This document shows, piece by piece, positions 7,201-21,963 of a stretch of DNA of 22,964 nucleotides (positions are counted from its first letter, which is position 1; the number at the start of each line of letters is the position of its first letter). The notes below the pieces were generated by a model. It did no database searches. It saw nothing but the letters and a program-made list of their open reading frames with translations, and was not told where the DNA came from. This DNA is from a virus: positions 1 through 22,964 of the IMG/VR virus record IMGVR_UViG_3300042890_001696, one strand, 5' to 3'. The translations under genes and the position numbers were made by a program.

Positions 7201-7833
7201 CGAAGATCCTAAACGTAGTTCAGAACTATCACTGGTTCCTAGCTTAAATTCCACATACTGACTAGTTCCTGTATTGGTGTTTCTAAGAGCTTGAAGTAGT
7301 CCTCCATTAAGGTTGTTTTCAACATGAAGCTTATAGGCTGGGTTAGTAACACCAATACCTACGTTACCATCACTCTGTATAGTGAATAAGGGGGATCCTG
7401 CGTGTATATGTTGAAATGCTTTATTATTATCCGTATAGGTGTAAAGAGCTCCCGGTAGAGCACCGTTACTTGTACCTGCACTTACGTTTTTAATTAGGTA
7501 TCCATAACTAGCTCCATCATGTAGTTCTAAATAAGAATAACTTCCTCCGGTTGCTTTAAAGGTTGCATGATTATTTGTTCCTTCTGCATACAGATTACCA
7601 CGTACGTCTAATTTTTCTGTTGGAGAAGCAGTGCCAATACCGACATTTCCACCGTTGTAGTAGATATTCCCGGCCGAACCGGTCCATATTGAATCACCTG
7701 CATTTAGGGCATAGGATGCAGTAGCTGCATAAGAAGCCGAGACTGCGTTTGTAATTGATCCTGAAAAAGATCCTGTGATTCCTTGGGTGACTATAAGAGA
7801 ACCTGTTATGCTGGTCGATTGTAACTGAGCCAT
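1261..7833 (-). CDS. Giant phage tail fibre with NVGIGT repeats and C-terminal S74 intramolecular chaperone, 2190 aa
   Basis: A head cassette at about residues 16-65 carries A-S-Y-A-x-x hexads ending LNAGDSIWTGSAGNIYYN. About 25 repeat units follow, each marked by a GNVGIGTTSPxxKLxV core, spaced on average about 88 residues, and often preceded by E-R-M-R-I-T-S. A conserved module at about 1977-2059 (core FSVDGNNGRLFEVSDD) leads into an S74-type domain at about 2090-2190. The expected Ser-Lys dyad is visible as S-D-Q-S-V-K (Ser2093, Lys2098), followed by GVIAQEVQKVLPEVV and a terminal helix rich in Glu, Gln, Lys and Leu. In this family the domain drives trimerisation of the fibre and then cuts itself off at the Ser. 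The product is probably a long trimeric fibre that contacts the host surface. One unit (near 5710-5745, NVGVGISPS) is shortened. The ATG follows the upstream stop by 17 bases with no Shine-Dalgarno. Confidence 0.93.
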   Translation of the reverse strand: MAQLQSTSITGSLIVTQGITGSFSGSITNAVSASYAATASYALNAGDSIWTGSAGNIYYNGGNVGIGTASPTEKLDVRGNLYAEGTNNHATFKATGGSYSYLELHDGASYGYLIKNVSAGTSNGALPGALYTYTDNNKAFQHIHAGSPLFTIQSDGNVGIGVTNPAYKLHVENNLNGGLLQALRNTNTGTSQYVEFKLGTSDSSELRLGSSYNYAASEWNQTWIYAVNRNLALKTSAGYDIRFYAGGTDDSYERMRVTNGGNVGIGTTSPAAKLDILGLVNTSIFRIRQSSGLLTQIESDNGYANLFLYQAGGNPQIGLVSNGSSYFNGGNVGIGTINPTAKLQIANPDAGSDGFQFQRWVYTAATAGVYELHLKQTVTSGVVRYNFSMINNSTAYNDVLVLDRGNVGIGTTSPGRKFVVTGAANDEWIATFTNTGTTPYGVYIDTSANSSTAYSFATYTNAGTGFFIRNNGNVGIGTTSPIYQFDITTANYKSFRIQSSDDALITIGSTVASSQFYSIGASGIGSGQGSNLFWIGRSTNNPSGLLTKDFVINSSGNVGIGTTSPSAKLHIGESGAAAQLWLQRTDGYNPVKLIGGTLADGNGFKITMNTTDAFSITSAGNVGIGTTSPNAKLEVANGFVRVGGTETDQYFFEGVRPGSSTTLRIYDNGSSVYYDSYSTMVFRANQNGGSSGNILLFGGNVGVGISPSVKLHVLSSGIAQRLESSATYTQLDFFNTTNTAANRNWAIGANLYNYGDFNIMASSAYNAAPNAAYTYLTINNAGNVGIGSINPGQKLQVEGSLLVNTGTSAAAYRDIMLGGIGGWSGGESHGIDTVYGSAGNPTTFSRIESHFDGTNGKIRFRNLFRASAPRTDILMTIQGDGNVGIGTDSPSNKLEVIGNIYTPNSIYLGSSGTYSKLGFYRYDGSAVGAMGWHTDDKFYIGGFPGWGATAGNEVRVYGFGANLYLGSTTAGDVVTVNTSGNVGIGTTSPASTLHVYNNADVWHTRIGGASGELRIGGQTASGAVIQALEPGGAIRQLYLQRDGGNVGIGTSSPTATLQINGGGGDTVPTLRLISTASDTFNWASSTQHANLTAGETSIHLIGKANSQYNQAYFGYRHVSDGSSSNMVTIGMYASDYLLNILGNGNVGIGVTNPSYKLHVNGNAYINETLYVNQATTIEDTLTVKTATGAYDVAVIDYSGVAGGRIKIYTDGILRSQIGSYYGDDTFFNAGYGGNVGIGTTSPTQKLSVQGNTDLGNSYGSTTSSTYTTRVSGYAMRYDASNRYGNYGVLILNADSGWTASARRFMITNGLNVNKFAIIRSVDSTTDPSFGDGGAISSGTADFVIDSAGNVGIGITTPNEKLHVAGNINAYVNGGIDAGLFASTSAGSTTIALRSNGITHFNGGSVGIGTTSPASLLHIYSTSGSPQGITIQGGDESFVKFLQGGGGVKNWGLITTNLAAGDFGIYQSTSVGGDPFSAGTAKMYFNNDGNVGIGTTSPTQLLHIVGTNAANNGLTLQNTNASGNSQVRFLNTSGTERAAITYVNGSDAVYHYTAAGGNLLNLVGGSIGIGTVAPASILHIYGSGNTFTRYTNTTYAGHYIDIGANSAGESFVYGYGAYPLLFGTNATERMRITSGGNVGIGTTSSTYRLAVVTSSSNGLYIQTSSSTFANPSIAMLNGSTDATISATSNGLEITTYSTHDMLFRTNTTERMRITSGGNVGIGTTSPASQFHLQGSNLMATFRNSSTSANQYTQLEFIAGSRDAYIWLGNQNTTNWAGDGGLNIYTGTGNMDFWTAATQRMRITAGGNVGIGTTSPATKLHVVGDQILDDGTNGRLTFSLESGENNVYSTTTGFGSYKPLRFTSSEYTYRIGGTEIMRITNSGNVGIGTTSPTAKLNVIGNIRVSDGTDQGYVYFRQDRDDVYIGENSGYQLTMGAPSGVIIETDSNTNGFSLFNVTRQAVSQFYIGDNGNVGINVATPQAKLQVSGSSNVLNVRGSGSAATSSIFSVDGNNGRLFEVSDDLSNSLFSVNTIAGLPVIEAFADYTVTMGTYGAYTLQVTGSRVGVGTSSPGYPLHVSGSVSGISIYATNDIAAFSDQSVKTDLQVIDSAIDRIKQINGYTYVRVDDLSNTRRAGVIAQEVQKVLPEVVSENTDGTLNVAYSNMIALLIEGMKEQQIQIDKLREDLEDLRYEL
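1264..1566 (-). other. S74-type intramolecular chaperone / autoprotease domain of the 2190-aa fibre
   Basis: This is the last roughly 101 residues of the fibre. Ser2093 (codon at 1555-1557) and Lys2098 (1540-1542) sit five residues apart, as in the Ser-Lys dyad of endosialidase-type C-terminal chaperones. The segments RRAGVIAQEVQKVLPEVV and LNVAYSNMIALLIEGMKE match the two most conserved parts of the family. The end is a predicted coiled helix. Cleavage is inferred from family knowledge and would remove the final 97-98 residues. Confidence 0.88.
1655..1905 (-). repeat. Pre-chaperone module, copy 1 (in the 2190-aa fibre)
   Basis: This encodes about residues 1977-2059, including VLNVRGSGSAATSS, FSVDGNNGRLFEVSDD, NTIAGLPVIEAFADY and VTMGTYG. 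A near-identical protein segment is encoded at 13675-13922. By eye I count about 5 amino-acid changes in 76, but roughly 44 base changes in 195, so most differences are silent. In this copy the module comes just before the S74 domain. Confidence 0.85.
3622..3766 (-). repeat. Shuffled spacer module, copy 1 (GIDAGLFASTS module)
   Basis: This encodes NEKLHVAGN, GGIDAGLFASTSAGSTTIA and RSNGITHFNGG in the 2190-aa fibre. It matches 14346-14487 in the 2427-aa fibre with about 18 mismatches over about 143 bases by eye. Identical blocks of about 30 bases lie at both ends. It is the closest DNA-level duplicate I found between the fibre genes. Confidence 0.85.
7641..7790 (-). repeat. Fibre head cassette, N-terminus of the 2190-aa fibre
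   Basis: This encodes TGSFSGSITNAVSASY and then ATASYALNAGDSIWTGSAGN, followed by IYYN and the first NVGIGT core. The segment contains hexapeptide periodicity ([TS]-A-S-[YF]-A-x). The same cassette occurs six times in the window, three of them at fibre N-termini. Confidence 0.85.
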
Positions 7834-7850: not shown

Positions 7851-10800
7851 TTACTTTGTAAGTAGTGCGTTAATTTGTTCCTGTTGACGGTCGATTATTT
7901 CCTTTAATTCCTTTACTGACTGGATTAGGACTGCGGTTAGTTTTGAGTAATCAATACCTTCAATCTCATCTTGTTTGTTTTTAACAACGAATTCGGGGTA
8001 GATGTTGATTACATCGTCTGCAATTAAACCGATGCTTGGTCTTTCTCCTTTTTTCTCTTTCCAGTCAAAAGTTACCGGCTGTAACTGAAGTACTTTATTG
8101 AGCTGAGGTTCTAGGTTCTGAATGTTAGTTTTGTATTTCTTTGCAGAAGTTTCAATAAAGGTTGTTGCTCTTACTGTTCCGACTACGTCCAAAGGAAGTA
8201 ATGGGTTGGTAGTACCAATACCGACAAAACCGCCCGCCTTTACTTTTAGTGAAGTTGAACCTAAAGTATTAATATCAACATCATTTCCACTGGTTGGGAA
8301 TACACCGGTAGTTGGTGAGCTAGCATTTGCATACCCGTACCCGTCATTAACCCAAGCCGAGGCTCCAATAATGTAGGTTGTACCTGCAATGTTAGCAGTA
8401 AATCCGTTGTATGTTGTACCTACTGAAAGTTTAGTTCCAATTGCAGCATTTCCGTTAACGTCGAGTTTGAAGGCTGGGCTAGTCGTACCAATACCAACGT
8501 TACTTGTTGTTGCAATAAACATTGCATTCGACGTGTTGTTTGGATGGAATGCAATTGCTCCACTACTATTATAAATGTTTAGAGCTGAAGCACCACCGTA
8601 AGAAGTATACCCTGTTCCTGATTTCCAGATTTCTCCTTGACCACTATCTGACCGAAACATCAAATCTGAGTATTGAGAATTTCCGGAATCACCAATCTCT
8701 ACCTGAGTAGCAGTAGTGGATGAATTATATAATCTAGCAACAGTAGTAGCACTACCACCATCAACATCAAGTTTTGAACCAGGACTAGTGGTTCCAATAC
8801 CAACGTTACCAGAAGTATCAATAACCATCTGACCTGTAGTTGCATTTGTACCAAAGTTTAAGAAGTACCCGGATGCTGCTTGTAGGTTAAGTGCGTTGTT
8901 ACTGTTGATTGTACCCCAGGTTATATACCCTACACCGCCGTTAGCGAAATATGTAGCATCTCTAAAGTTTGTAGTTCCATTTATATCCAGCGTTCTTGCT
9001 GGGTTAGTAATGCCTATACCTACGTTACCGTTATTTAATACTCTGAATCTATTAACCCAGGTGGCATGTCCGACTGTTGCTGAACTGTAATACCCTATAT
9101 CAACTAATGGGCTTGCTCCGCTGCTATAATCTCCTACAAGTCTAAGACCTGCTGTTGTTTGATCCATCCCTATACCGCTCCATCCACCGTATGTATTGAT
9201 AAACAATGGATTGTTTGGAACAGTGTTACCGAATGATATACCGAATGTAGAAGATGTACCTACTATGTCTAGCTTAGCTCCTGGGCTAGTACTTCCAATA
9301 CCTACGTTACCGCTAGCATCAATAATAATATCGTTAAGAGATGCGTCTCTACCAATCCTTACAGGTGTACTTCCTGAGTTTGAACCAAACGAGGCGTATA
9401 TTCCTGTTGTGTTCATTACAGCTGTATTTGCTTGTATCTCTGTATTTGAGTATATTTTACCGTTTACTTCGAGTTTATAAGCTGGGCTAGTGATACCGAT
9501 CCCGACATTACCACCAGAAGTAATACGCATTCTTTCCGAAGGATCGTCGCTAGCTCCTGTTGTTGCTCTAGTTCCAAAGATTAAATCCCCGAGAGTATAT
9601 CCGGAAGTACTTGTTTCTCTGTATCCAATGTAGGCCGGATAGGTTGTTGTACCAGATGTTTCAGCATACCCAAAACCGATTAACCTATAAGATCCAATAG
9701 TATATTCATTACCGCCTACTCCTAGGTAGTAAGAAGCAGATACTACTGTACTTGCATTACCGCTAGTAAACTTTCTAAGAGTTAAAGCTGCTTTAGAGGT
9801 AGAAGCTACTGGGTTAGCAATAGTATCGCCAATAACCATGTTGTACCCGTTTCTAATTACAGCATCACCTACTATGTCGAGTTTTGCTGCCGGTGTAGTT
9901 GTACCAATACCTATGTTGCCATCAGCTAATGCTGTGAATATTTTAGTACCGGTGGTTGTACTGTAAATGTAATAATTCCCTCCATTTAAATATGTAGTTA
10001 GATTAGATGCATTTCCTGAGGTTGCCCAAGCATCTGTACCAAATCCTCCTCTAAATGTTGAACCGTCGTAAAATCTAAAAGCACCGGATGTTGGATCAAC
10101 ATCTACCTGTCCATCAGTACCGTTTGCTCTTATAGTTCCGGCTACAAATAATTTCGTTAATGGATTAGTATTACCAATCCCGACATTACCGTTAGTTGTA
10201 ATACGTACTTTTTCGCTACCAGCAGCGTATAATGCTAGAGCAGTACCTGATTGACCTCCTACTATTGCTAGTGAAGTATCCCAGCTTAGGAATCCAGCAT
10301 TTGCACTCCCGCCGCCCCATAGCATTACACCATCACCATTCAAAATAAATCTTGAATTGCTTCCTTGTTGAATTCGCAAAGCGTCTGATGTGCTTGCAAC
10401 GTTTACATCTAGTCTATAAGCAGGATTAGTAGTACCAATACCTATGTTACCTCCAGAAGTAATACGCATTGCTTCAGCACTATTTGTAACAAATACCATC
10501 GGGTAAGCACCTTCAGAATATAGGAAACGGCCGTAAGCTGATCCAAAACCACTACCTGCTGAGTTATCTATTGCAAAGTAAAAATTACCACTGCTATTAT
10601 TGCCTAACTGTAAAATTGGATATCCGGTACTTGAATCTTGGATAAAAACTCTTGGGTTTGTTCCATACGTGTGAAGTTTATAAGTAGGACTAGCGGTACC
10701 GATACCGACGCTACTCCCGTTTAATACTAGTCCGGCACCTGATGTTGTATTAAGTGAAACAGTACCTGTAGCTCCTGATGAACCAACTACTACGTTTGTT

Positions 10801-13800
10801 GTGCCTGATAGTATTGTGTTTCCCCCAATTCTATAAACACCACTGTTTACATTTATGTCTCCAGTAACATCAAGTTTATAGCCTGGACTTGCAGTACCGA
10901 TCCCGACATTCCCACCGCTATAGTAAATATTCCCGGCCGATCCAGTCCAGATTGAATCACCTGCGTTTAAAGCATAAGAAGCCGTCAATGCATATGAAGC
11001 AGAGACTGCATGCGTGATTGATCCTGAGAATGAACCTGTGAATGAGGTTGCTTTAACATTACCAATTACTTCAAGTTTTGCCGTTGGGCTAGTTGTTGCA
11101 ATACCTACATTACCGTCATTGGCAATCATCATTCTAACTGTACCTGCAGTAATTGTGCTGGTGCTTGTTCCAAAAACAATTCCATAATAACTATTCAGGT
11201 AAGTATTAACTCCTGTTATTCCTGATAGTACGATAGTTCCCATTGCATTACTTGCAGCAGCACTACTGTATATGTTCAGTGGATTCGCAGAATTATAGTT
11301 AGATTCAATAAGTGTATGGTAAGCACTTGGATCTGACGCTGTTTCTAATCTTAGCTGAGTAGAGTTTGACTGTATAGTTAATTTACCGGTTGGATTAGTA
11401 GTTCCAATACCGACGTTGCCGTCGGAAGTAATACGTATACGTTCTGTATTATTCGTGGCAAACCTTAAGGCATTGTTACTAGAAACTCCGAGGTACCCTC
11501 CATTTGAAGAAATACCGATATCCATTTTATCTGTATTATTGGCGTTAAGAACATAGGATACATTAGTAGAACTGTAGAGTTCTACCATCTTTGCAAATCC
11601 TGCTGGGGAAGCAGGACTAGTAGTTCCAATACCAACGTTACCAGCGCTAGTGATTGTCATATTTACGTTCCCACCATTAGCAATAGAAACTATATTTGAG
11701 GCTATTTGTATAAAATTATTTCCAGTTTGAGCATCAAAGTCTACAATACCTCCTGTTGAGTTTAATCTTGTAGCCCTTGCTGTACCATTTACCTGTAGTG
11801 CTGTAGCTGGACTAGTGGTTCCAATACCGACGTTACCAGTGTCTATAATACGCATACGTTCAACGTTGCCGCCTGCGTTAAATGCTATATCTCCACCACC
11901 ATATTCTTGACCTATAGTAATAACTTCGTTGCTAGCATCTTGATCAATAAACGCATTGGCTCCAATTCGTAATCTTGTTACATAGGTTGACGGATATGAT
12001 ACATAAAAGCGTTGGTAGACTGATGTAAAGACATCCAACTGTCCGGCTGGGGTATTAATACCAATACCTACGTTTCCATTCTCAGCTACTCTTAGTTTAA
12101 CAGTAGGCGTTGTTGTACCTGTTACTAAGCTAATACCGTTATTATAGCCGGTTCTCGGAGATGCCTGTAAGATTAATTCTCCGTAATAGTCAAGAGGGAA
12201 AGTTCCGCCTGTTCCGCTTGTATAGATAAATCCGTTTGCTCCGCCGCCATCGCTACCTACTGCAAAAGTATTATCATAAAATGTAGTTAATGGAGTAGAT
12301 TGAGCTCTAAATATTCCTAAAATTCTTGCGCTGTTTACAACTTCAAGTTTTGCAGATGGGCTAGTAGTTCCAATACCGAGGTTACCTGAAGTGTTTATAG
12401 TAACAGCATTTCCAATAATACCGCTTGGAACAAATTGAATTGGTCCATCACCATTCCATAAATACAGGCTTTTATTTAGAGCACTGTTTGCTGTAGCTGT
12501 ATTTTTAATTAAGTATCCATTATCAGACGAAGGTGTTGTTAATTGTAAGTATGCATAGTCACCGCCACCTGCTTTAATGTTTGCAAATGCAGTACCTGAA
12601 TTGTATACTTCTAGTTTAGCACCCGGACTAGTAGTTCCAATACCAACGTTACCGCCATTAAAATAACTTGTTCCATTAGAATGTAGCTGCACTGCTGCTC
12701 CTCCTCCGCTGTTTTCAATAACGACCTGTCCATCTCCTCCTGATGTTTCAACAACATAGAAAATATTATTTGTATTTGCAGCTCTTTGAATAAGGAGCGG
12801 GTATGTATTTAATCCTGAGGATTTAATATGTACTCTACCTGATGGGCCTGTAGTACCAATACCAATATTACCGTTAGGAAATGCGAAAGTGCTTCCATCC
12901 CATTGGTATACAGTACCTCCAAGTGAATTATCTTGGAGTCTAAAGTGTCCGCTACTATTATAAATTCCGTTTACGTACTCTCTTGCAAAGTTGTATATAA
13001 TTTGCTGGTCGGTAGCTCCTCCGCCTTTTAAAGTTATTGGACCTCCGGATACGTGTAATTTGGTTTCGGGTCCTGTTGTGCCAATACCAACTCTTGCGTT
13101 AGCGGTATCAACACGCATAACAACGGATGCGTCCTGATGTCTAAAGTCTATTGAAGTACCGCTATAAGTCTGTACAAAGTCTGTATAGGTTACACCTGAG
13201 ATTGCTGTGTTGCCAATAACTACTAATTTTTGAGAGGGGTTAGTAGTTCCAATACCAACGTTACCGCTATTATACTTTATAGTTAAGTAATCACCAACTG
13301 CATCATTAATTCTAAAATCGTTTGTTCCTGATGGTAGGTACAATTTCCACTGGACGGTGGTATTATTAATATAGAAATTAGGTGCTGTTGAATCTATTAT
13401 TCGCAATCCACTACCTCCGCTACTTACTATGTCTAGTTTGACTGTTGGGTTAGTAGTACCAATACCGACATTACCTTGGTTATAATAAATATTTCCTGCA
13501 GACCCAGTCCATATTGAATCTCCAGCATTTAAAGCGTATGAAGCAGTTAATGCATAAGATGCCGATACTGCATTAGTTGCAGACCCTGATATTGAACCTG
13601 TGAATGAAGTCGCTCTAACGTTTCCATTAACGTCTAATTTGGCCTGGGGTGCCGAACTACCGATTCCTACATTAGATCCTGTTACTTGAAGTACATACTG
13701 TCCGTAAGTACCCATTGTCACAGAGTAGTCTGCGAACGCTTCAATCACTGGTAGACCAGCAATCGTATTAACAGAGAATAAACTGTTGGAGAGGTCATCA

Positions 13801-15134
13801 GAAACCTCGAATAACCTACCATTATTACCGTCCACCGAGAAGATAGATGAGGTAGTAGCTGATCCTGAACCTCTAACGTTTAAAACGTTGGTTGATCCGG
13901 ATATTTGTAGTTTTGCAGCTGGTGTTGATACACCGATACCGACGTTACCTGAGCTAACAATACGCATTCTCTCTACCATTGTAGCAGATCCATCGTATAC
14001 ACTAAATCTTATACCGTACCCTGATGAGAGTCCTCCTATTTCTGAATCACCATTATTCCATGTGATGAAGTTGGTAGACGGCATGTAGATATTACCGTTA
14101 ACGTGTAGTCTTTGTACCGGATTTGTAGTTCCAATACCAACATTTCCGCCAGCTGTAACAACCATTCTTACGGTACTTCCTGCATAAAAATCTAAAGACG
14201 TATCATTTACACCTCTAATTCCTTGAGCACTATTACCCCACATCAAGAACTGTCCTGAGTCTAAGAATAATGTTCCACCATTTACGTAGGTAGAACCTGC
14301 TATTTGTAATTTATAGATTGGGTTAGTAGTTCCAATACCAACATTACCTCCGTTAAAATGAGTTATTCCATTAGATCGGATAGCGATGGTTGTCGATCCT
14401 CCGGACGTGCTTGCAAATAAACCGGCATCTATTCCACCAGCTGCATATGCGTGGATATTACCTGCTACGTGAAGTTTTTCATTTGGATTGGTAGTTCCAA
14501 TACCAACACTACCTCCGTTTGGCTGTAAAGCAATCGGACTAGAGTTGTTGGTCATTTTTAATATACCAACATCTGATGTATTAGTTGCTTGAAAATAAGA
14601 TGATCCGTTATACCAGTATGTTGAAGTACCGATAACATACATGTCGCTTCTAAAAGCAGAAGTTCCATTTACATCTAGTTTATAACCCGGGCTAATAGTT
14701 CCAATACCGACACTACCTCCTGAAGCAATCATTAGGTACGGTGTATTTCCGTTGCTATTAATACCTATTCCGAAGTCCTGAACTGTTACTCCGGAGTTAC
14801 CTGCTCCTACATACCACCTAGTTGCACTAGCGTAAGATTGGTAACTTGTATAAGCGTATCCTGCAGTTGCACTTGTAATGTCAAGTAGAGAGACAGGGCT
14901 GGGAGTGCCGATTCCAACATTCCCACTGTTGTAGTAAATATTACCTGCCGAACCAGTCCAGACTGAGTCTGCTGCATTGAGAGCATATGATGCTGTTACG
15001 GCGTAAGAAGCAGAGGTTGCAAATGCGATTGACCCTGAGAAGGACCCTGTGAAGGAGGTTGCGGTTACTGATCCTTGAACCCTGGTCGAACCAGAGACAA
15101 TAAGCCCATTTTTTACTACGAATTCATTAGCCAT
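7851..15134 (-). CDS. Giant mosaic phage tail fibre with three head cassettes and C-terminal S74 chaperone, 2427 aa
   Basis: This is the largest gene in the window. It begins MANEFVVKNGLIVSGSTRV, an N-terminal segment I recall from phage fibre proteins, then a head cassette ending LNAADSVWTGSAGNIYYN. About 29 NVGIGT-type units follow, on average about 84 residues apart. Two further complete head cassettes occur inside the protein, at about residues 507-554 and 1362-1407. The first is preceded (about 405-486) by the module that comes before S74 in the 2190-aa fibre. The C-terminus (about 2327-2427) is an S74-type domain with S-A-K-K-Y-K (Ser2330, Lys2335), then PSIGLIADDVINIYPEFV and a terminal helix. 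The architecture suggests three fused fibre units sharing one trimerising chaperone. The start has AAGGGTGA six bases upstream, partly within a possible stem-loop. The virion role is confident; the fusion history is inferred. Confidence 0.93.
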   Translation of the reverse strand: MANEFVVKNGLIVSGSTRVQGSVTATSFTGSFSGSIAFATSASYAVTASYALNAADSVWTGSAGNIYYNSGNVGIGTPSPVSLLDITSATAGYAYTSYQSYASATRWYVGAGNSGVTVQDFGIGINSNGNTPYLMIASGGSVGIGTISPGYKLDVNGTSAFRSDMYVIGTSTYWYNGSSYFQATNTSDVGILKMTNNSSPIALQPNGGSVGIGTTNPNEKLHVAGNIHAYAAGGIDAGLFASTSGGSTTIAIRSNGITHFNGGNVGIGTTNPIYKLQIAGSTYVNGGTLFLDSGQFLMWGNSAQGIRGVNDTSLDFYAGSTVRMVVTAGGNVGIGTTNPVQRLHVNGNIYMPSTNFITWNNGDSEIGGLSSGYGIRFSVYDGSATMVERMRIVSSGNVGIGVSTPAAKLQISGSTNVLNVRGSGSATTSSIFSVDGNNGRLFEVSDDLSNSLFSVNTIAGLPVIEAFADYSVTMGTYGQYVLQVTGSNVGIGSSAPQAKLDVNGNVRATSFTGSISGSATNAVSASYALTASYALNAGDSIWTGSAGNIYYNQGNVGIGTTNPTVKLDIVSSGGSGLRIIDSTAPNFYINNTTVQWKLYLPSGTNDFRINDAVGDYLTIKYNSGNVGIGTTNPSQKLVVIGNTAISGVTYTDFVQTYSGTSIDFRHQDASVVMRVDTANARVGIGTTGPETKLHVSGGPITLKGGGATDQQIIYNFAREYVNGIYNSSGHFRLQDNSLGGTVYQWDGSTFAFPNGNIGIGTTGPSGRVHIKSSGLNTYPLLIQRAANTNNIFYVVETSGGDGQVVIENSGGGAAVQLHSNGTSYFNGGNVGIGTTSPGAKLEVYNSGTAFANIKAGGGDYAYLQLTTPSSDNGYLIKNTATANSALNKSLYLWNGDGPIQFVPSGIIGNAVTINTSGNLGIGTTSPSAKLEVVNSARILGIFRAQSTPLTTFYDNTFAVGSDGGGANGFIYTSGTGGTFPLDYYGELILQASPRTGYNNGISLVTGTTTPTVKLRVAENGNVGIGINTPAGQLDVFTSVYQRFYVSYPSTYVTRLRIGANAFIDQDASNEVITIGQEYGGGDIAFNAGGNVERMRIIDTGNVGIGTTSPATALQVNGTARATRLNSTGGIVDFDAQTGNNFIQIASNIVSIANGGNVNMTITSAGNVGIGTTSPASPAGFAKMVELYSSTNVSYVLNANNTDKMDIGISSNGGYLGVSSNNALRFATNNTERIRITSDGNVGIGTTNPTGKLTIQSNSTQLRLETASDPSAYHTLIESNYNSANPLNIYSSAAASNAMGTIVLSGITGVNTYLNSYYGIVFGTSTSTITAGTVRMMIANDGNVGIATTSPTAKLEVIGNVKATSFTGSFSGSITHAVSASYALTASYALNAGDSIWTGSAGNIYYSGGNVGIGTASPGYKLDVTGDINVNSGVYRIGGNTILSGTTNVVVGSSGATGTVSLNTTSGAGLVLNGSSVGIGTASPTYKLHTYGTNPRVFIQDSSTGYPILQLGNNSSGNFYFAIDNSAGSGFGSAYGRFLYSEGAYPMVFVTNSAEAMRITSGGNIGIGTTNPAYRLDVNVASTSDALRIQQGSNSRFILNGDGVMLWGGGSANAGFLSWDTSLAIVGGQSGTALALYAAGSEKVRITTNGNVGIGNTNPLTKLFVAGTIRANGTDGQVDVDPTSGAFRFYDGSTFRGGFGTDAWATSGNASNLTTYLNGGNYYIYSTTTGTKIFTALADGNIGIGTTTPAAKLDIVGDAVIRNGYNMVIGDTIANPVASTSKAALTLRKFTSGNASTVVSASYYLGVGGNEYTIGSYRLIGFGYAETSGTTTYPAYIGYRETSTSGYTLGDLIFGTRATTGASDDPSERMRITSGGNVGIGITSPAYKLEVNGKIYSNTEIQANTAVMNTTGIYASFGSNSGSTPVRIGRDASLNDIIIDASGNVGIGSTSPGAKLDIVGTSSTFGISFGNTVPNNPLFINTYGGWSGIGMDQTTAGLRLVGDYSSGASPLVDIGYYSSATVGHATWVNRFRVLNNGNVGIGITNPARTLDINGTTNFRDATYFANGGVGYITWGTINSNNALNLQAASGYFLNFGTNATTGQMVIDTSGNVGIGTTSPGSKLDVDGGSATTVARLYNSSTTATQVEIGDSGNSQYSDLMFRSDSGQGEIWKSGTGYTSYGGASALNIYNSSGAIAFHPNNTSNAMFIATTSNVGIGTTSPAFKLDVNGNAAIGTKLSVGTTYNGFTANIAGTTYIIGASAWVNDGYGYANASSPTTGVFPTSGNDVDINTLGSTSLKVKAGGFVGIGTTNPLLPLDVVGTVRATTFIETSAKKYKTNIQNLEPQLNKVLQLQPVTFDWKEKKGERPSIGLIADDVINIYPEFVVKNKQDEIEGIDYSKLTAVLIQSVKELKEIIDRQQEQINALLTK
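7854..8156 (-). other. S74-type intramolecular chaperone / autoprotease domain of the 2427-aa fibre
   Basis: The domain spans about residues 2327-2427. Ser2330 (codon 8145-8147) and Lys2335 (8130-8132) form the expected dyad spacing, but the residue after the Ser is Ala where the neighbouring fibre has Asp. The conserved segments are PSIGLIADDVINIYPEFV and IDYSKLTAVLIQSVKELKE, with a Gln-rich terminal helix. Apart from these signatures it differs strongly from the S74 domain of the 2190-aa fibre. The two were therefore not recently copied from each other, and they probably fold different trimers. Confidence 0.87.
10915..11052 (-). repeat. Internal fibre head cassette, third copy in the 2427-aa fibre
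   Basis: This encodes KATSFTGSFSGSITHAVSAS, YALTASYALNAGDSIWTGSA and GNIYYSGG, at about residues 1362-1407. Its protein is almost identical to the internal cassette at 16831-16972 in the 1669-aa fibre (SITHAVSASYALTASYALNA), while many codons differ silently. Everything about it resembles a fibre N-terminus, but it lies mid-gene. Confidence 0.83.
13471..13614 (-). repeat. Internal fibre head cassette, second copy in the 2427-aa fibre
   Basis: This encodes RATSFTGSISGSATNAVSAS, YALTASYALNAGDS and IWTGSAGNIYYNQGNVGIG, at about residues 507-554. It begins roughly 20 residues after the pre-chaperone module at 13675-13922. The junction looks like the end of one fibre, without its S74 domain, joined to the head of another. 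Confidence 0.83.
13675..13922 (-). repeat. Pre-chaperone module, copy 2 (internal in the 2427-aa fibre)
   Basis: This encodes about residues 405-486, with VLNVRGSGSATTSS, FSVDGNNGRLFEVSDD, NTIAGLPVIEAFADY and VTMGTYG. It is the partner of 1655-1905, with about 93% protein identity and about 77% DNA identity by eye. Here no S74 domain follows; a head cassette does. Confidence 0.85.
14346..14487 (-). repeat. Shuffled spacer module, copy 2 (GIDAGLFASTS module)
   Basis: This encodes NEKLHVAGNIHAYAAGGIDA, then GLFASTSGGSTTIA and RSNGITHFNGG in the 2427-aa fibre. It is the partner of 3622-3766, about 87% identical in DNA, with identical blocks of about 30 bases at both edges. The flanking units are unrelated, which is what module exchange by recombination would leave. 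Confidence 0.85.
14921..15063 (-). repeat. Fibre head cassette, N-terminus of the 2427-aa fibre
   Basis: This encodes TATSFTGSFSGSIAFATSAS, YAVTASYALNAADSVWTGSA and GNIYYNSGNVGIG. The hexapeptide periodicity FATSAS-YAVTAS-YALNA is clear. It is the most N-terminal of the three copies in this gene. Confidence 0.85.
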
Positions 15135-15181
15135 AAGTTATCACCCTTTCACTGTCCAGGGTAGACGTTTGTTATAAATAT
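15135..15181 (-). promoter_or_regulatory. Intergenic element copy 3, with stem-loop overlapping a Shine-Dalgarno
   Basis: The 47-base gap starts on the coding strand with ATATTTATAACAAACG fused to the TAA stop of the 1669-aa fibre gene. A possible stem-loop follows: ACCCT and AGGGT pair across a 10-base loop (15143-15162). The 3' arm overlaps the Shine-Dalgarno-like AAGGGTGA (15141-15148), six bases before the ATG. The stem could limit ribosome access to the 2427-aa fibre gene. It is short, and no folding energy was computed. Confidence 0.45.
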
Positions 15182-18100
15182 TTAGAAATACCGAACCATA
15201 TAATTAATATCATATGGTGTTATTCCGGAGTTTGTTGCAGTGAGCCAGGTCGGTGCTCCGTAAGCTACTGCAAACGTAATTGCAGAAGTATTACCTATAT
15301 CGACAGTGGTGGTTTCATTTATAACTGCAGAGACACTATTTAAATTAATAGAAACCATAATTGTTCCTACTCTTTGATTGGTTGCACCTGAGCTGTCAAC
15401 GATTACGTAGTCAACAAAGGCAGCTTTAGTTGTTCCGGGTACGAAAGAAATGATATTTACGGCCGGACCAGGTGCGATTAATGCTGGTGCTACTTCGTAA
15501 TCAATTACTGAACCTGATACTGAGATTGCACCTGCTATTGATAGTTTCTGTGAAGGGCTTGAATATCCAATACCTAAATTACCACCGGTACTTAAGAACA
15601 TTCCGGTTGGTGAAGAATTATCTCCAAAGAATGTTAATCCAGAAGCTCCTACAACACCGCTTTGAAATAAACCATACCCGGCAACTTCTAGTTTTTGAGT
15701 TGGGCTAGTGGTTCCAATACCTACGTTACCCCCGGAGGTAATAACTATTCTGGTAGTGTCAGCTGTATAGAATCTTAGGCCGGTTCCAGATATAGCATAT
15801 AAGTCTACATAACTGTCTGTATTATCGTGATATAAATAACCGTACGCAGTACCGTTATTTTGCATTGTAAGGCCTGAGAATCTTGTTCCAGAATCAGCAT
15901 CTAATGCTAATATTCCTTCATTTGTTACCCAAGCTCCTTTAACGTGAAGTTTAGCTGAAGGATTAGTAGTTCCAATACCGACATTATCAGAAGCATTTAT
16001 GGTTATAGTTGCAACTGAGCTTGCTCCTAAGTGTAGGTAGTTAGCTGCTCTTAATGCAGTACTATCCGATTGAGCATTTGAAAATATACTTCCAGCGTTG
16101 CCATATCCTAAAATAGTTCTGAATGTAGTGTTTTCGTTAATAACTAAACCGCCAAATTGACTTGTAGAATCTATTCTAATGTTACCTGCATCGGTACCAT
16201 TAGCGGCCCCTACTATGTGCAATTTATTTCCGGGGGATGTAGTACCAATACCTACGTTACCTCCGTTGACTTGAAATACTAGAGCATCTGTAGAGTAGTT
16301 ACTAATTACAGAGTATGCTGATAGCTGCTGCCAGTAGGTGTAATTACTTCCTCCATACCATAAATTAATTTTATTATCATTTGTTGAACTAATACCGATA
16401 TGAATATTACTGTTGTATGGAACAATTTTCATACCTGGATAGCCACCGTCGTTGGTTTCTCCAATAGTTGAAACTTGTGTATCTCCAATTTTTAAAGCAT
16501 TCGGTCCATCGTCTGCAATATGTAATTTTCCTGAAGGGTTAGTAGTTCCAATACCTACGTTACCTCCAGTTGTTACTGTAAGTTTTGCTGAAGCAAATCC
16601 ATCATCAGCAGATGCTAATTTGAATTTATTTGAATCTGCTTTATCTAATCCTAGTACCCAATCCTGGTTTCCTGTGTATAGGAAATGCTGTTCTACGTTT
16701 CCTGAGGTTGCTTCAAAAAAAGTTCTTAGTGATGTTGTGTTTGTACTTAATACTCTAAATGCTGTAGCTGATGTACCACTATTTACATCTAGTTTTATAG
16801 CAGGGCTTGTAGTACCAATCCCAACATTACCAACATTGTAATAGATATTGCCGGCTGATCCTGTCCAAACAGAGTCTCCAGCATTTAGAGCGTACGAAGC
16901 TGTTAAAGCATAGCTAGCGCTTACTGCATGAGTGATTGATCCTGAGAAGGAACCTGTGAATGATGTGGCGTAAACATTACCGTTAACTTGTAAAGTTGCT
17001 AAAGTTGGGTTAGTGGTTCCAATACCGACGTTACCGTTTTGGAAATCAAATTTACTTGACCTAAAGGTAAGTGGTGTATAGGCACTATCGGCATCATCAA
17101 TTGAAGCAACTTCTAAATTAGTACCGGAGGATATTCTAAAGTTTTGATTTGTGTTAGCTCTAACGTGTAATTTAGATAGTGGGCTAGTAGTACCAATACC
17201 CACAAGGCCGGTGTTTGTTAATACTATAGAGTTAGGATCGGTAATTAAACCTGTATTGTAACTATTAACAATGTACAAACTTGTACTGTTTGCAGGTGAG
17301 CCGATGTGTGCTGAAGCAATTCCGGATTGCCATAAGAATAAACTTGTTGCTTCTCCTGTGTTGTTTTGTACAGATAATCCGTTTGAATAAGCTCCTCTTG
17401 AGGAAGTCATTGTTCCGAATGCACCTGTTCCAATAACATCTAATTTTATAGCAGGGCTAGTAGTGTTAATACCTACGTTACCGCCTGCTGCAATACGCAT
17501 TCTTTCAGTATTGTTTGTATAGAAGTTAACAAACGCTGATACTGAAGTTCCTATGTTTAATTCAGAGTTTTGATAGCTGTTAATAAATCCAACGTTTGAA
17601 CCGTTGTAGTTTAAATGTAAACTTGAGTTGTTACCGCTACCATCTACTATAATTCTTTGAGTTGCATCTGTAGAACCGGAAATGTGAAGTCGGGCAGAAG
17701 GACTATAAGTGCCAATACCTACATTACCTTGAGTTGGAGCTAAAGCAATATTACCTCCTTGGTATAAAACCATACTAGCAGTAACTGCTGTATTAGTAAA
17801 TGACGAGCCTGAAGTTTGCTGGTTTATAAAACCAAATGATTTATACTGTCCTGCTGGTGTATACGATTCATAATAAGGCTTACCTGAATTGTTTGCTACC
17901 GATACACCTGCTAATTCACTAGTAAAGAATCCACCTTCAATCCATTGATATGTTGGTGATTCTTGAGCAGATAAGAAGTAGTGTGATTTAGCTTGGTTTG
18001 AATTTTTTCTAGCAATAAATAAACCGGCACTTGTTACACTATCATTACCGATTTGAGCTTGTCCTTGTACTTCGAGTATTTGAGATGGACTAGCAGTACC

Positions 18101-20191
18101 AATACCAACATTACCCCCGGTGGTGATACGCATTTTTTCAGTACCGCTAGTCAGGAATGCAGCAGTAGTATTCGCTTCAACATACAGAGTTGAAGCACCG
18201 TAGATATAGTTTTTTATTCCGGATGGACCTAACGCAATACCGCCGGCATTTGTTCCTTGAATATCAACAGTAGTGATTCCGGTACCTATTAGACTTGGGT
18301 TGGTTGTTCCAATACCAACGTTGCCTGTAGTATCAAGATACACTCTTGAAACTCCATTAGTCTGTAAACTTAGAGGAGTTGCATTACTTGAACCAACAAT
18401 TCCAACATTTGAAGAAAGCCCAGCGTATAGGTGATATGTACCTGTATTCTCAATAAATAATAGTTGGTTACCAGAACCGTATAAGTGAAGTTTTTGAGAA
18501 GGAGTAAAGGTTCCAATACCTACATTACCGTCAGAAGCAATCCGCATTCGTTCTGCTCCATTTGTCTTAAGCAGTAAGTTATAACCAACAGTAGCATTTT
18601 CTAATACTAAATCACCGGCGGCGATATTTAAAACCATTGGAGTTATTGTTGAAACACTACCGAATAAGTAATTACTTGCTCGAATATTTCCAATAACATC
18701 TAGGTTAGTACCTGGGTTGGTTGTTCCAATGCCTACGTTACCAGCATAATATCCTGATCCATTTGTATTAACAAAGTATGAAGTGGTCCCTCCTAGTCCG
18801 GAAGACATATTAACCCCGTAATTCACTTCAATTGCTCTACCGGAGGATCCAGAATGTTGAATTAGGAGTGAACCAAAACTGTTAGCTGGGTTTTTCTTAA
18901 AAAGTACTAATTCGGCGGCACTGCTATTATCTGTGGTTGCAAAAATACCATCAACAGTACTTGTTGCATTTACTGCTAATTGAGCTGGGAATAAACTTGA
19001 ATATTGTGTTGTTGCTGTGGTTCCAATACCTACGTATCCTGCTGCAGTAATTCGGACTCTTTCATAACTACCATCAGAACCAAGTGCTAAATACCCATTA
19101 CTTACTGTGGTTCCAACAAACATTCCAAGTGAACCGTGGTTCATCCAGACGGCGCCTTTTACTGTTTGGTTTTGAGTTAAGTACATAGCGGAGTATGTAC
19201 CGCTTGCATCAAGTCTCAGCTGGTTATCGCTAGATGAAAAAACTTCTAATTTACCTGTTGGACTTGTAGTACCAATACCGACGTTTCCGGTACTTGAAGC
19301 AATCCATAGTCTTGTAGTACCGTCTTGATCAATAGCGAAGTTAAATCCACCGGCCGGAGAAGAAATATTCCATGCCGAATCGCCTCTTTTATCTAAAGAA
19401 AGTCTCGGAACATAACTATTACCTCCGGTTGTTGCAACTGTAAGTTTTGTATCTCCGGTAGCTGTATATACTTCTAACTTTGAGGAAGGGCTTGTGGTTC
19501 CAATACCAACGTTTCCTGAATTGTCAATAAACAATCTCGAAGTTGTTGAACCAGTTCCTGTTTCTAAACTTAAAGTTTTGCTCTGTACTAATAATGGTTT
19601 AAACTCTGCTCCCCAATCAACTGCGTATAGAAAGCTAATCCCTGACTGTACTGCAAGTGTTGTAGCATGTCCTTGTGCTGATAAGCCGTTGGTAGCTCCT
19701 GTTGCAGATATTGCTCCATTTACTTCTAGTTTTTCATAAGGAGTAGTTGTTCCAATACCAACAGTACCTATACTGGTAATGCGCATACGTTCAGTAGCAG
19801 AGGTATAAAATAACATTGAGTTTGAAGTAGATGCAAACCCGTTATTATCAGATAAAACACCAATGTTATAATTTCCTCCTGCATTTGATACAAAAATATC
19901 AGTCCTTGTGCCGCTTGCTCCACCGTAGACGTCTACTTTGTATGATGGATTAGTAGTTCCAATACCAACATTACCCTGATTATAGTAAATATTTGCACCT
20001 GATCCTGTCCAAATAGAGTCTCCAGCATTTAAAGCGTAAGATGCAGTTAAAGCATAGGAAGCAGTAGTGGCAAACGAAGCGGTTCCAAATAGTGAACCCG
20101 TAAATGATTGAGCCGTTACATTAGTTGTAACGTTAAGTGAATTCAATGAGGCATCCGACCCCGATACGAGCAGCTTTTTCCAGTTTGGCAT
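15182..20191 (-). CDS. Giant phage tail fibre with NVGIGT repeats and beta-rich C-terminal tip domain, no S74, 1669 aa
   Basis: The protein opens MPNWKKLLVSGSDASLNSLN, the same WKK-x-x-VSGS signature as the 404-aa protein upstream, so both may attach to the same virion site. A head cassette (about residues 27-73) with TASFATTASYALTASYALNA hexads follows, then about 19 NVGIGT-type units averaging about 88 residues. A second head cassette lies at about 1073-1121, suggesting a fusion of two fibre units. The C-terminus (about 1565-1669) is not S74. It is a beta-rich domain with KAAFVDYVIVDSSGATNQRV and ETTTVDIGNTSAITFAV, ending in NYMVRYF. It resembles, from memory, a C-terminal domain found on various phage tail proteins. 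How this fibre trimerises is therefore unclear. The start is set by AGGAG at 20199-20203, seven bases before the ATG, the best Shine-Dalgarno in the window. Confidence 0.92.
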   Translation of the reverse strand: MPNWKKLLVSGSDASLNSLNVTTNVTAQSFTGSLFGTASFATTASYALTASYALNAGDSIWTGSGANIYYNQGNVGIGTTNPSYKVDVYGGASGTRTDIFVSNAGGNYNIGVLSDNNGFASTSNSMLFYTSATERMRITSIGTVGIGTTTPYEKLEVNGAISATGATNGLSAQGHATTLAVQSGISFLYAVDWGAEFKPLLVQSKTLSLETGTGSTTSRLFIDNSGNVGIGTTSPSSKLEVYTATGDTKLTVATTGGNSYVPRLSLDKRGDSAWNISSPAGGFNFAIDQDGTTRLWIASSTGNVGIGTTSPTGKLEVFSSSDNQLRLDASGTYSAMYLTQNQTVKGAVWMNHGSLGMFVGTTVSNGYLALGSDGSYERVRITAAGYVGIGTTATTQYSSLFPAQLAVNATSTVDGIFATTDNSSAAELVLFKKNPANSFGSLLIQHSGSSGRAIEVNYGVNMSSGLGGTTSYFVNTNGSGYYAGNVGIGTTNPGTNLDVIGNIRASNYLFGSVSTITPMVLNIAAGDLVLENATVGYNLLLKTNGAERMRIASDGNVGIGTFTPSQKLHLYGSGNQLLFIENTGTYHLYAGLSSNVGIVGSSNATPLSLQTNGVSRVYLDTTGNVGIGTTNPSLIGTGITTVDIQGTNAGGIALGPSGIKNYIYGASTLYVEANTTAAFLTSGTEKMRITTGGNVGIGTASPSQILEVQGQAQIGNDSVTSAGLFIARKNSNQAKSHYFLSAQESPTYQWIEGGFFTSELAGVSVANNSGKPYYESYTPAGQYKSFGFINQQTSGSSFTNTAVTASMVLYQGGNIALAPTQGNVGIGTYSPSARLHISGSTDATQRIIVDGSGNNSSLHLNYNGSNVGFINSYQNSELNIGTSVSAFVNFYTNNTERMRIAAGGNVGINTTSPAIKLDVIGTGAFGTMTSSRGAYSNGLSVQNNTGEATSLFLWQSGIASAHIGSPANSTSLYIVNSYNTGLITDPNSIVLTNTGLVGIGTTSPLSKLHVRANTNQNFRISSGTNLEVASIDDADSAYTPLTFRSSKFDFQNGNVGIGTTNPTLATLQVNGNVYATSFTGSFSGSITHAVSASYALTASYALNAGDSVWTGSAGNIYYNVGNVGIGTTSPAIKLDVNSGTSATAFRVLSTNTTSLRTFFEATSGNVEQHFLYTGNQDWVLGLDKADSNKFKLASADDGFASAKLTVTTGGNVGIGTTNPSGKLHIADDGPNALKIGDTQVSTIGETNDGGYPGMKIVPYNSNIHIGISSTNDNKINLWYGGSNYTYWQQLSAYSVISNYSTDALVFQVNGGNVGIGTTSPGNKLHIVGAANGTDAGNIRIDSTSQFGGLVINENTTFRTILGYGNAGSIFSNAQSDSTALRAANYLHLGASSVATITINASDNVGIGTTNPSAKLHVKGAWVTNEGILALDADSGTRFSGLTMQNNGTAYGYLYHDNTDSYVDLYAISGTGLRFYTADTTRIVITSGGNVGIGTTSPTQKLEVAGYGLFQSGVVGASGLTFFGDNSSPTGMFLSTGGNLGIGYSSPSQKLSIAGAISVSGSVIDYEVAPALIAPGPAVNIISFVPGTTKAAFVDYVIVDSSGATNQRVGTIMVSINLNSVSAVINETTTVDIGNTSAITFAVAYGAPTWLTATNSGITPYDINYMVRYF
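15545..19970 (-). repeat. Tandem NVGIGT protein-repeat array (about 19 units)
   Basis: The cores vary around GNVGIGTT[SN]P. Two units carry insertions between the core and the following hydrophobic strand (near 18275-18310, NPSLIGTGITTVDI; near 18965-19025, TATTQYSSLFPAQLAV). The preceding strand often contains E-R-M-R-I or a variant. Confidence 0.85.
16831..16972 (-). repeat. Internal fibre head cassette, second copy in the 1669-aa fibre
   Basis: This encodes YATSFTGSFSGSITHAVSAS, YALTASYALNAGDSVWTGSA and GNIYYNVGNVGIG, at about residues 1073-1121. It is far from the N-terminus and closely matches the third cassette of the 2427-aa fibre in protein sequence. Confidence 0.83.
19975..20110 (-). 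repeat. Fibre head cassette, N-terminus of the 1669-aa fibre
   Basis: This encodes FTGSLFGTASFATTASYALT, ASYALNAGDSIWTGSGANIY and YNQ. It has three consecutive T-A-S-[FY]-A-x hexads, the longest run among the six copies, and links to the GTAS[YW]A motifs of the 5'-truncated fibre-like gene upstream. Confidence 0.83.
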
Positions 20192-20274
20192 ATATATACT
20201 CCTATTGCGGTTAGAAACAGCATCATTGCTGCCTACTTCCCTTTACGGGCCAACACTAGGTTTGTTATAAATAT
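20192..20274 (-). promoter_or_regulatory. Longest intergenic leader, with AT-rich element copy 4, stem-loop and strong Shine-Dalgarno
   Basis: The 83-base gap begins on the coding strand with ATATTTATAACAAACC, fused to the TAA stop of the 75-aa gene. A small hairpin (CAGCA-ATGA-TGCTG, 20218-20231) lies in the middle, and AGGAG (20199-20203) lies seven bases before the ATG. It is the only gap with enough room for a full leader, so it is the best candidate site for separate expression of the giant fibre genes. No T-run follows the hairpin, so it is not a standard terminator. Confidence 0.5.
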
Positions 20275-20502
20275 TTAAGATTTCGACTTAGTAGCAGTCT
20301 CTTTTTGAATGATTTTTTCAAGCTCTTCTTGCTTTTTAGTTTCTTCAGCCTGTAGAGTAAATTGAATATTCATTATAGCTTCGTCAAGTTTATCTTGAAG
20401 CCCGGCGATTGCTCTTGCACTTTTACCAGATATCTGAATAACGTCTAAGGATTGTCTTATAATAGCAATCTCTTCTGGGGTTAATCCAATTTCGTAATTC
20501 AT
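20275..20502 (-). CDS. Small helical phage protein of unknown function, 75 aa
   Basis: I do not recognise a named family. The protein is mostly helical: an LTPEEIAIIRQSLDVIQ helix near the N-terminus, an S-G-K-S turn, a second amphipathic helix containing GLQDKLDEA, then a charged tail rich in Glu, Lys and Gln. There is no signal peptide or membrane segment. It lies two bases after the 70-aa gene and shares with it the layout L-T-x-E-E, a long helix, a Ser/Gly turn, and a helix with K-L-x-x. The two look like diverged tandem paralogs. Their place inside a fibre-gene run suggests a small assembly or adaptor role, which is inference only. The start is the ATG two bases past the preceding stop, so translation is probably coupled. 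Confidence 0.75.
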   Translation of the reverse strand: MNYEIGLTPEEIAIIRQSLDVIQISGKSARAIAGLQDKLDEAIMNIQFTLQAEETKKQEELEKIIQKETATKSKS

Positions 20503-20504
20503 AC

Positions 20505-20717
20505 TTACTTAACTGTAATGTATTGGTTTTGAAGCTTAATTATAAGCTTGTACAGCATTTCAATTGCTTCTCCTTGAAAAGTTGATTGTTTAATCATTGC
20601 AAGGAGGAACTGAAGTTCTTCTCTAGTAAGTGAATAATCCTGAGTTGGGGATTGGATGGGCTGTGGTTGTACTGTCTGTTCGGAACTAACAACTAAATTG
20701 TCTGTTTTTAAGGCCAT
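20505..20717 (-). CDS. Small helical phage protein of unknown function, 70 aa
   Basis: The first 28 or so residues are polar and look disordered (Q-P-Q-P-I-Q-S-P-T-Q), then a compact helical part begins with YSLTREELQFLLAMIKQSTF and continues GEAIEMLYKLIIKLQNQY. From memory, similar short L-T-x-E-E-L-x-x-L-L proteins occur in structural regions of aquatic T4-like phages, without a known role. The protein appears related to the 75-aa product directly downstream. The ATG follows the upstream stop by nine bases (TAATAAAAGTTT then ATG), with no Shine-Dalgarno and an A-rich leader. The second codon is Ala. Its small size and coupled position suggest it is made in step with the 404-aa protein; a role as a fibre adaptor or chaperone is speculative. 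Confidence 0.75.
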   Translation of the reverse strand: MALKTDNLVVSSEQTVQPQPIQSPTQDYSLTREELQFLLAMIKQSTFQGEAIEMLYKLIIKLQNQYITVK

Positions 20718-20726
20718 AAACTTTTA

Positions 20727-21941: not shown

Positions 21942-21963
21942 GGTCTATGTTAGTTATAAATAT
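21942..21963 (-). promoter_or_regulatory. AT-rich intergenic element, copy 6
   Basis: The 22-base gap on the coding strand begins ATATTTATAACTAAC, fused to the TAA stop of the 5'-truncated fibre-like gene, and ends ATAGACC before the ATG of the 404-aa gene. No Shine-Dalgarno is visible. It matches copies 2, 3 and 4 over the first 11 bases. Confidence 0.5.

Follow-up and report, generated by a model that had tools for sequence, protein, structure and literature searches.

The window, that is the whole stretch of DNA analysed here, corresponds to an entire IMG/VR virus record of 22,964 bases. Its fibre genes share the minus strand, on which a 404-aa protein, weakly matching a structural-protein profile, is followed by two small ORFs and by three fibres of 1669, 2427 and 2190 amino acids, referred to below as F1669, F2427 and F2190. 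The two small ORFs (75 and 70 aa; 20275-20717, minus strand), located between the 404-aa protein and F1669, are without a Pfam match, and any PHROG match is marginal at best. The features are the following.

15182..20191, minus strand: F1669, gene of the 1669-aa fibre, with an ATG start; matches the PHROG tail fibre profile phrog_9942 (E 1.8e-75)
20120..20191, minus strand: gene-specific N-terminal anchor of F1669, residues 1-24; a similar anchor occurs in the orthologues of loci L013, L030, L099 and L135
19952..20119, minus strand: N-terminal head cassette of F1669, residues 25-80
16808..17035, minus strand: internal joint of F1669, residues 1053-1128, with GNVGIG at 1053, the cassette from 1073 and the next GNVGIG at 1121
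15185..15556, minus strand: C-terminal tip of F1669, residues 1546-1669, without S74 domain, a predicted β-sandwich
7851..15134, minus strand: F2427, gene of the 2427-aa fibre, with an S74 tip
14901..15068, minus strand: head cassette of F2427, residues 23-78
13452..13619, minus strand: internal cassette 1 of F2427, residues 506-561, with a corresponding copy in L010
10890..11057, minus strand: internal cassette 2 of F2427, residues 1360-1415 (the third cassette of the sequence-only reading), with a corresponding copy in L010
1261..7833, minus strand: F2190, gene of the 2190-aa fibre, with an S74 tip; no internal cassette was found
7627..7794, minus strand: head cassette of F2190, residues 14-69

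A Peptidase_S74 domain (PF13884) terminates F2427 (E 3.5e-14) and F2190 (E 9.4e-13), while the same search yields no match in F1669 at E 0.1, which is thus a non-S74 fibre. Forty-eight named phage records match F1669, all below 60% identity and none with 80% cover in one place. The predicted F1669 tip (mean pLDDT 76.8) resembles, among the matches listed, the C-terminal part of T4 gp9 (1qex_A, entitled long-tail-fibre connector; Z 12.5, rmsd 2.3 over 110 residues) and, with Z of 7-10, C-terminal parts of Acinetobacter and Klebsiella phage tailspikes or fibres. From this modelled fold, the F1669 tip might dock another fibre instead of binding a receptor.

Other arrangements of anchors and tips are found in related loci. 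The protein L166:7778-14533 combines an F2427-type anchor (MANEF), three cassettes of a second type and, by eye, an F1669-like tip; L016:8576-13768 and L092:8420-14620 possess an F1669-type anchor and an F2427-like end. Anchors and tips seem to reassort.

The head cassette and the shaft repeat

The head cassette has the core SFTGS..ASYALTASYALNAGDSxWTGS..NIYYN..GNVGIG, starting at residues 25 and 1073 of F1669; its fuller form, SFTGSxSGS..ASYALTASYALNAGDSxWTGS..NIYYN, runs into a GNVGIG motif. All three window fibres carry it at their front. Extra copies are located at 1073 in F1669 and at 506 and 1360 in F2427, and F2190 has the front copy only. The shaft is built of the repeat GNVGIGTTxPxxKLxV, with 18 GxVGI motifs in F1669, 25 in F2427 and 23 in F2190. 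A further unit type is common to the window fibres at higher DNA identity (F2427 208-271 against F2190 1348-1411, 85%).

A cassette HMM scores 117 and 125 bits on the two F1669 copies; as it was built from these same cassettes and close relatives, its members score high by construction. The loci surveyed with it had been fetched using the cassette, so that its frequency among them is inflated. Matches above E 1e-3 were dropped in the profile searches, and the second survey, from which L009 was excluded, also dropped matches missing the head part of the model. Partial matches are of two types: the front half of the model is found in many phage proteins without GNVGIG repeats, at the start and mid-protein, and the back half is the general GNVGIG repeat itself. 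In L016 and L092 a related element lies at ~480, where the GNVGIG array starts after another N-terminal part. The reading that fits is that the head cassette is the array-start unit of the shaft. Cassette DNA had no match in the phage collection, and a scan of genome contigs returned a single weak one. Weak Pfam matches at the cassette (LtuA, Gp7 domain VI) fell under the curated cut-offs and were set aside. No paper was recognised as describing the head cassette in the literature search, in which the string GNVGIGTTSP had no match.

A second cassette type (APGxTTQxVYN) is the main one in L030, L099 and L135. It also matches, in part only, at ten places of a 2114-aa protein that lacks GNVGIG repeats (L186:7250-13594). 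Front and internal cassettes were of a single type within each of five hand-picked gene groups (0.0076 by counting), a post hoc result that includes some weak matches and carries little weight, L010 being merged with F2427 and L099 with L030, and a half-cassette of the other type at L099 261 being left uncounted.

The internal joint of F1669

The internal cassette of F1669 belongs to a 68-residue unit delimited by the GNVGIG motifs at 1053 and 1121 and in phase with the other shaft repeats. The sequence-only reading had placed a cassette at about residues 1073-1121, nearly identical in protein to the third cassette of the neighbouring fibre; these coordinates are right, as F1669 1073-1121 and F2427 1360-1408 share 45 of 49 residues. 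At the DNA level, 111 of 147 bases are identical, and 25 of the 45 codons for identical residues differ, where ~61% would be expected to do so at random given the codon usage of these genes. Judged from these codons, the pair is old, its protein having been held constant while synonymous sites came near saturation. For that very reason, it is most unlikely that this pair arose by a recent duplication or fusion.

The three-cassette layout of F2427 recurs in the diverged L010, each cassette matching best the one at the corresponding position (DNA identity 0.76 for the front, 0.81 for the first and 0.78 for the second internal copy), although, at 0.76, the F2427 front cassette is no closer to its L010 counterpart than to internal cassette 2 of F2427. 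This suggests that the layout predates the split between the window and L010. Among themselves, the window's cassettes share 63-76% DNA identity, a low value for homologous recombination to be efficient at present.

Across five genes, eight internal joints (one in F1669, two in F2427, two in L010, one in L030 and two in L099) read (L/F)xVxGN followed by VxA(T/V)SFTGS; those of L166 and L167 differ slightly. Read by eye, none of the eight is flanked by a remnant of an anchor (MPNWKK.., MANEF.., MAQLQ..) or of an S74 or non-S74 tip. The idea that F1669 is a fusion of two whole fibres finds no support in view of these joints, the ordinary length and phase of the F1669 unit, the synonymous divergence of the F1669/F2427 pair and the correspondence of the L010 copies.

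The internal cassette of F1669 was compared part by part. The closest DNA to F1669 1053-1101 is the L099 joint 242-289 (83% over 145 nt, against 77% over 147 nt for F2427 1341-1388), and residues 1093-1128 are 84% identical over 105 nt to the front cassette of F1669 itself. A two-source test divides this cassette after codon 18; the first part agrees with the last F2427 cassette at 21 of 24 sites, the second with the front cassette at 21 of 39. Four crossover tests on the internal cassette gave p values of 0.0025 (two-source), 0.0195, 0.12 and 0.21, a weak signal, and a mosaic of two sources is suggestive, no more. A structure prediction of the joint (AlphaFold, monomer) was uninformative, with a mean pLDDT of 53.6.

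Another IMG/VR contig, L009, repeats window positions 11982-22964 at 99.95% identity (5 mismatches in 10,983 bases). It carries the whole of F1669 with both cassettes, which argues against an assembly artefact. The analysis found no close relatives of the window that differ by the presence or absence of the internal cassette; in L010 the copy of F1669 ends at the contig end (267 aa), the unit corresponding to 302-391 sitting directly before that at 1537.

Breaks of homology in related fibres

Thirteen of the 15 pairs formed by a window fibre and a relative with its anchor lose front-end DNA homology within the head cassette; the pairs fall into a few related groups. The stops occur at residues 27-35, 50 or 69-77, that is at three blocks of the cassette. 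The two other pairs (L016 and L092 with F1669) stop before it, at residue 17, below the 80-nt limit. In the comparison of all front ends, which excluded L009, 196 of 252 pairs were kept, the other 56 (two of them with a window fibre) being dropped for more than 97% identity or less than 80 nt. Ninety-one of the 196 end at residues 90-99, all of them within L129-L162, loci with other N-termini or no head cassette. Outside this set, with L135 retained, 58 of 65 pairs end no later than residue 90, the other 7 beyond it.

Along the shafts, 32 of 38 non-overlapping homology ends in six gene pairs fall in a GNVGIG motif, against 8.3 expected, and mean identity drops across these ends from 79% inside to 33% outside. 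A looser count over 14 pairs gives 40 of 59, against 11.2 expected. Pieces under 130 nt or 72% identity were dropped in both counts, as were, in the six-pair count, pieces that overlapped with a longer piece, and the gene pairs are related, so that the counts are not independent. By our own reading of the list, 26 of the 32 motif ends lie at GNVGIG motifs away from cassettes; the six ends outside the motif comprise four in a cassette or its joint and two elsewhere. Shaft units and arrays are thus exchanged whole; the cassette is one of many points of exchange, and at the front it is the main one.

Three loci, L030, L099 and L135, encode an orthologue of F1669 as defined by anchor and tip, the tips of L030 and L099 being 38% and 31% identical to that of F1669. 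Since their main cassette type differs from that of the window, they are to be seen as analogues in an orthologous gene. Cassettes start at 25 and 503 in L030 (1046 aa), at 25 and 471 in L099 (992 aa) and at 25 only in L135 (861 aa), weaker matches near the tip (L030 863, L099 809, L135 676) being left uncounted. Residues 1-71 of L135 match residues 1-71 of L030 (93% DNA identity), and residues 29-189 match 507-667 (90%): in L135 the front cassette runs straight into the unit found after the internal cassette in L030 and L099, 478 residues of L030 being absent there. At the sites that separate the front and internal stretches of L030, L135 sides with the front stretch up to codon 47 (22 of 23 sites) and with the internal one from codon 49 (83 of 91, most of these 91 lying past the cassette). 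With L030 as a stand-in for the parents, the comparison places the switch at codons 47-49, inside the cassette, which is a hybrid. The tips of L030 and L135 are 96.7% identical, and either is 86-87% identical to that of L099; as the most similar tips are those of L030 and L135, yet the internal cassette is common to L030 and L099, loss in L135 is the simpler history. An exchange between phages could mimic such a loss.

L099 differs from L030 by a further block of ~210 residues, with NVGxG...GNVKATSFTGSFSGS at both edges. Of the 120 bases upstream of the L030 joint, 92 are identical to those flanking the first L099 joint and 31 to those flanking the second; of the 120 downstream, 43 and 110 are. 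Cassette-bounded rearrangement recurs in this lineage, in the hybrid start of L135 and in the L099/L030 block, which supports in part the sequence-only suggestion that fusion or cassette insertion recurs. L135 comes close to the expected shorter version of the gene, starting or ending at the cassette: its shaft does start at the internal cassette of L030 and L099, but the gene has kept its anchor. No relative with the gene split at the cassette was noticed among the loci compared. The position of the cassette shifts between homologues, and shorter relatives exist; a fixed position in distant homologues without shorter relatives had been named as the pattern speaking against the proposal.

F1669 orthologues range from 861 to 2893 residues. 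Other shafts are found in these loci. In L013, L100 and L106, the 2893-aa orthologue has a shaft composed almost entirely of NTAxG repeats between a similar anchor and tip, and 93 NTAxG matches are counted in the same gene of L124/L127. In L101:11807-20488, the same gene comprises two ORFs, of 643 and 2128 aa, through a real disruption or an assembly error. F2427 orthologues with collagen-like GTQGTTGPQG shafts are located at L030:13117-16446 and L099:14833-20010.

Proposed exchange at array-start units and comparison with known fibres

The explanation we favour, with a probability of roughly two in three, is that an old array-start unit acts, together with the GNVGIG motif, as an in-frame exchange point, the internal cassette being a reshuffling joint rather than the scar of a whole-fibre fusion. 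As the start of GNVGIG..P...KL repeat shafts (an S74/MAT-type repeat), the cassette sits after a gene-specific anchor at the front and also within the shaft, in phase with the repeats. Cassettes and GNVGIG motifs, being conserved units in one reading frame, would form islands of homology. Crossing over at such islands, whether it pairs a front with an internal cassette or units from different fibre genes or phages, would remove, insert or substitute arrays of the shaft without a change of reading frame, anchor and tip staying in place. The breaks would then reflect homologous recombination, one instance of which would have given F1669 its internal copy, with consequences for fibre length or receptor presentation. 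Motif-mediated exchange in phage fibres is said to have been described by Tetart in 1998. The expected marks of motif-mediated exchange are a concentration of breaks at the shared motif, as in the two counts above, and a hybrid motif of both parental types, which L135 provides and the F1669 cassette only suggests. Against this explanation, cassette-like elements in proteins without GNVGIG repeats may indicate a mainly structural role.

The internal cassette could be one more shaft unit, a bend, spacer or trimer lock with no special part in recombination, every unit boundary exchanging alike. The phase it shares with the other units, the 26 of 32 motif ends away from cassettes, the 85% unit common to F2427 and F2190 and the ten partial second-type matches in the L186 protein all agree with this; it is nevertheless unlikely, as 13 of the 15 front-end breaks of the window fibres fall within the cassette, at three blocks, and both block differences of the L030/L099/L135 trio are cassette-bounded. 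A fusion of two complete fibre genes that kept the downstream head cassette appears more improbable still in view of eight near-uniform junctions without anchor or tip remnant, the near-random codon divergence of the F1669/F2427 pair and the corresponding F2427 cassettes of the window and L010. It would account for a cassette that opens a repeat run and for the L135 fibre, made of an anchor, an array starting at an internal cassette and a tip. The best hint of a former tip boundary might be the likeness between F2427 396-494, before internal cassette 1, and F2190 1968-2066, the last unit before the S74 tip (74% DNA identity). The word scar is an interpretation of the cassette, not confirmed.

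Repeats collapsed or wrongly chained during assembly come to mind since the relatives are metagenome contigs with exact shared stretches of up to 23 nt (L030 front and internal) and 38 nt (L099 joints). Such an origin is scarcely credible for F1669, whose gene region recurs in L009, whose two cassettes share at most 17 exact bases, and whose neighbour F2427 has three cassettes in the diverged L010 as well.

An exchange point of this kind could tentatively be taken one step further, although we hold it for doubtful: the cassette would be an evolved recombination joint, kept in several in-frame copies so that crossovers continually rebuild the length and composition of the shaft, anchor and tip untouched. 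Related fibres would then behave as a combinatorial library, and a single crossover could take 1048 residues out of F1669 and leave a readable fibre of 621 aa.

Apart from this further step, the shaft of these fibres is itself modular, and exchange seems to be visible in natural relatives, namely in the hybrid cassette and in the blocks bounded by cassettes. Exchange of the shaft would account for the differences in length of giant fibres among related phages, as over the range of the F1669 orthologues, and the cassette would offer a concrete marker for such events in viromes.

Among PDB sequences, F1669 matches mosaic adhesive trimeric (MAT) fibres of Bdellovibrio bacteriovorus, one of the closest known systems: 8ond (E 1e-8), 8oml, 8ojn and 8on4. 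The accessible text of PMC10769870 describes MATs as long and trimeric, built of β-helix units, with S74 and non-S74 tips, and reports two of them, with similar N-termini, to have swapped their C-termini. Their capping-loop consensus, V-G-G/N-pi-X-X-P-X-X-X-L, resembles the GNVGIG repeat, its V-to-P spacing as printed being one residue shorter (same part of PMC10769870). The 8ond chain contains GNVGIGATAPTAKLEV, and the repeated VGxGxxxPxxxL loop that marks this class is found in F1669, with its 18 GxVGI motifs and PDB matches. The alignment with 8ond, the best match, covers mainly the GNVGIG part, whereas the weaker 8oml and 8on4 cover more of the cassette. MATs differ in being bacterial proteins with a signal peptide, followed in this class by a conserved ~130-aa β-rich domain, and no repeated internal head cassette is noted for them in the accessible part of PMC10769870. 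From Peptidase_S74 tail fibres (PF13884), whose C-terminal intramolecular chaperone is shared by F2427 and F2190, F1669 differs by having no match.

Short conserved motifs beside or in receptor-binding genes have been proposed as recombination hotspots that swap modules (PMC10408124, as far as its accessible text goes). That phage fibres swap receptor-binding parts at conserved motifs is already known; the difference here lies in the copy within a gene and in the exchange of the shaft instead of the tip. In the cases presented in that text, a receptor-binding domain or an adhesin is swapped, whereas here it would be the shaft between anchor and tip. Unlike in those cases, the motif recurs here within one gene, making an exchange between front and internal copies possible.
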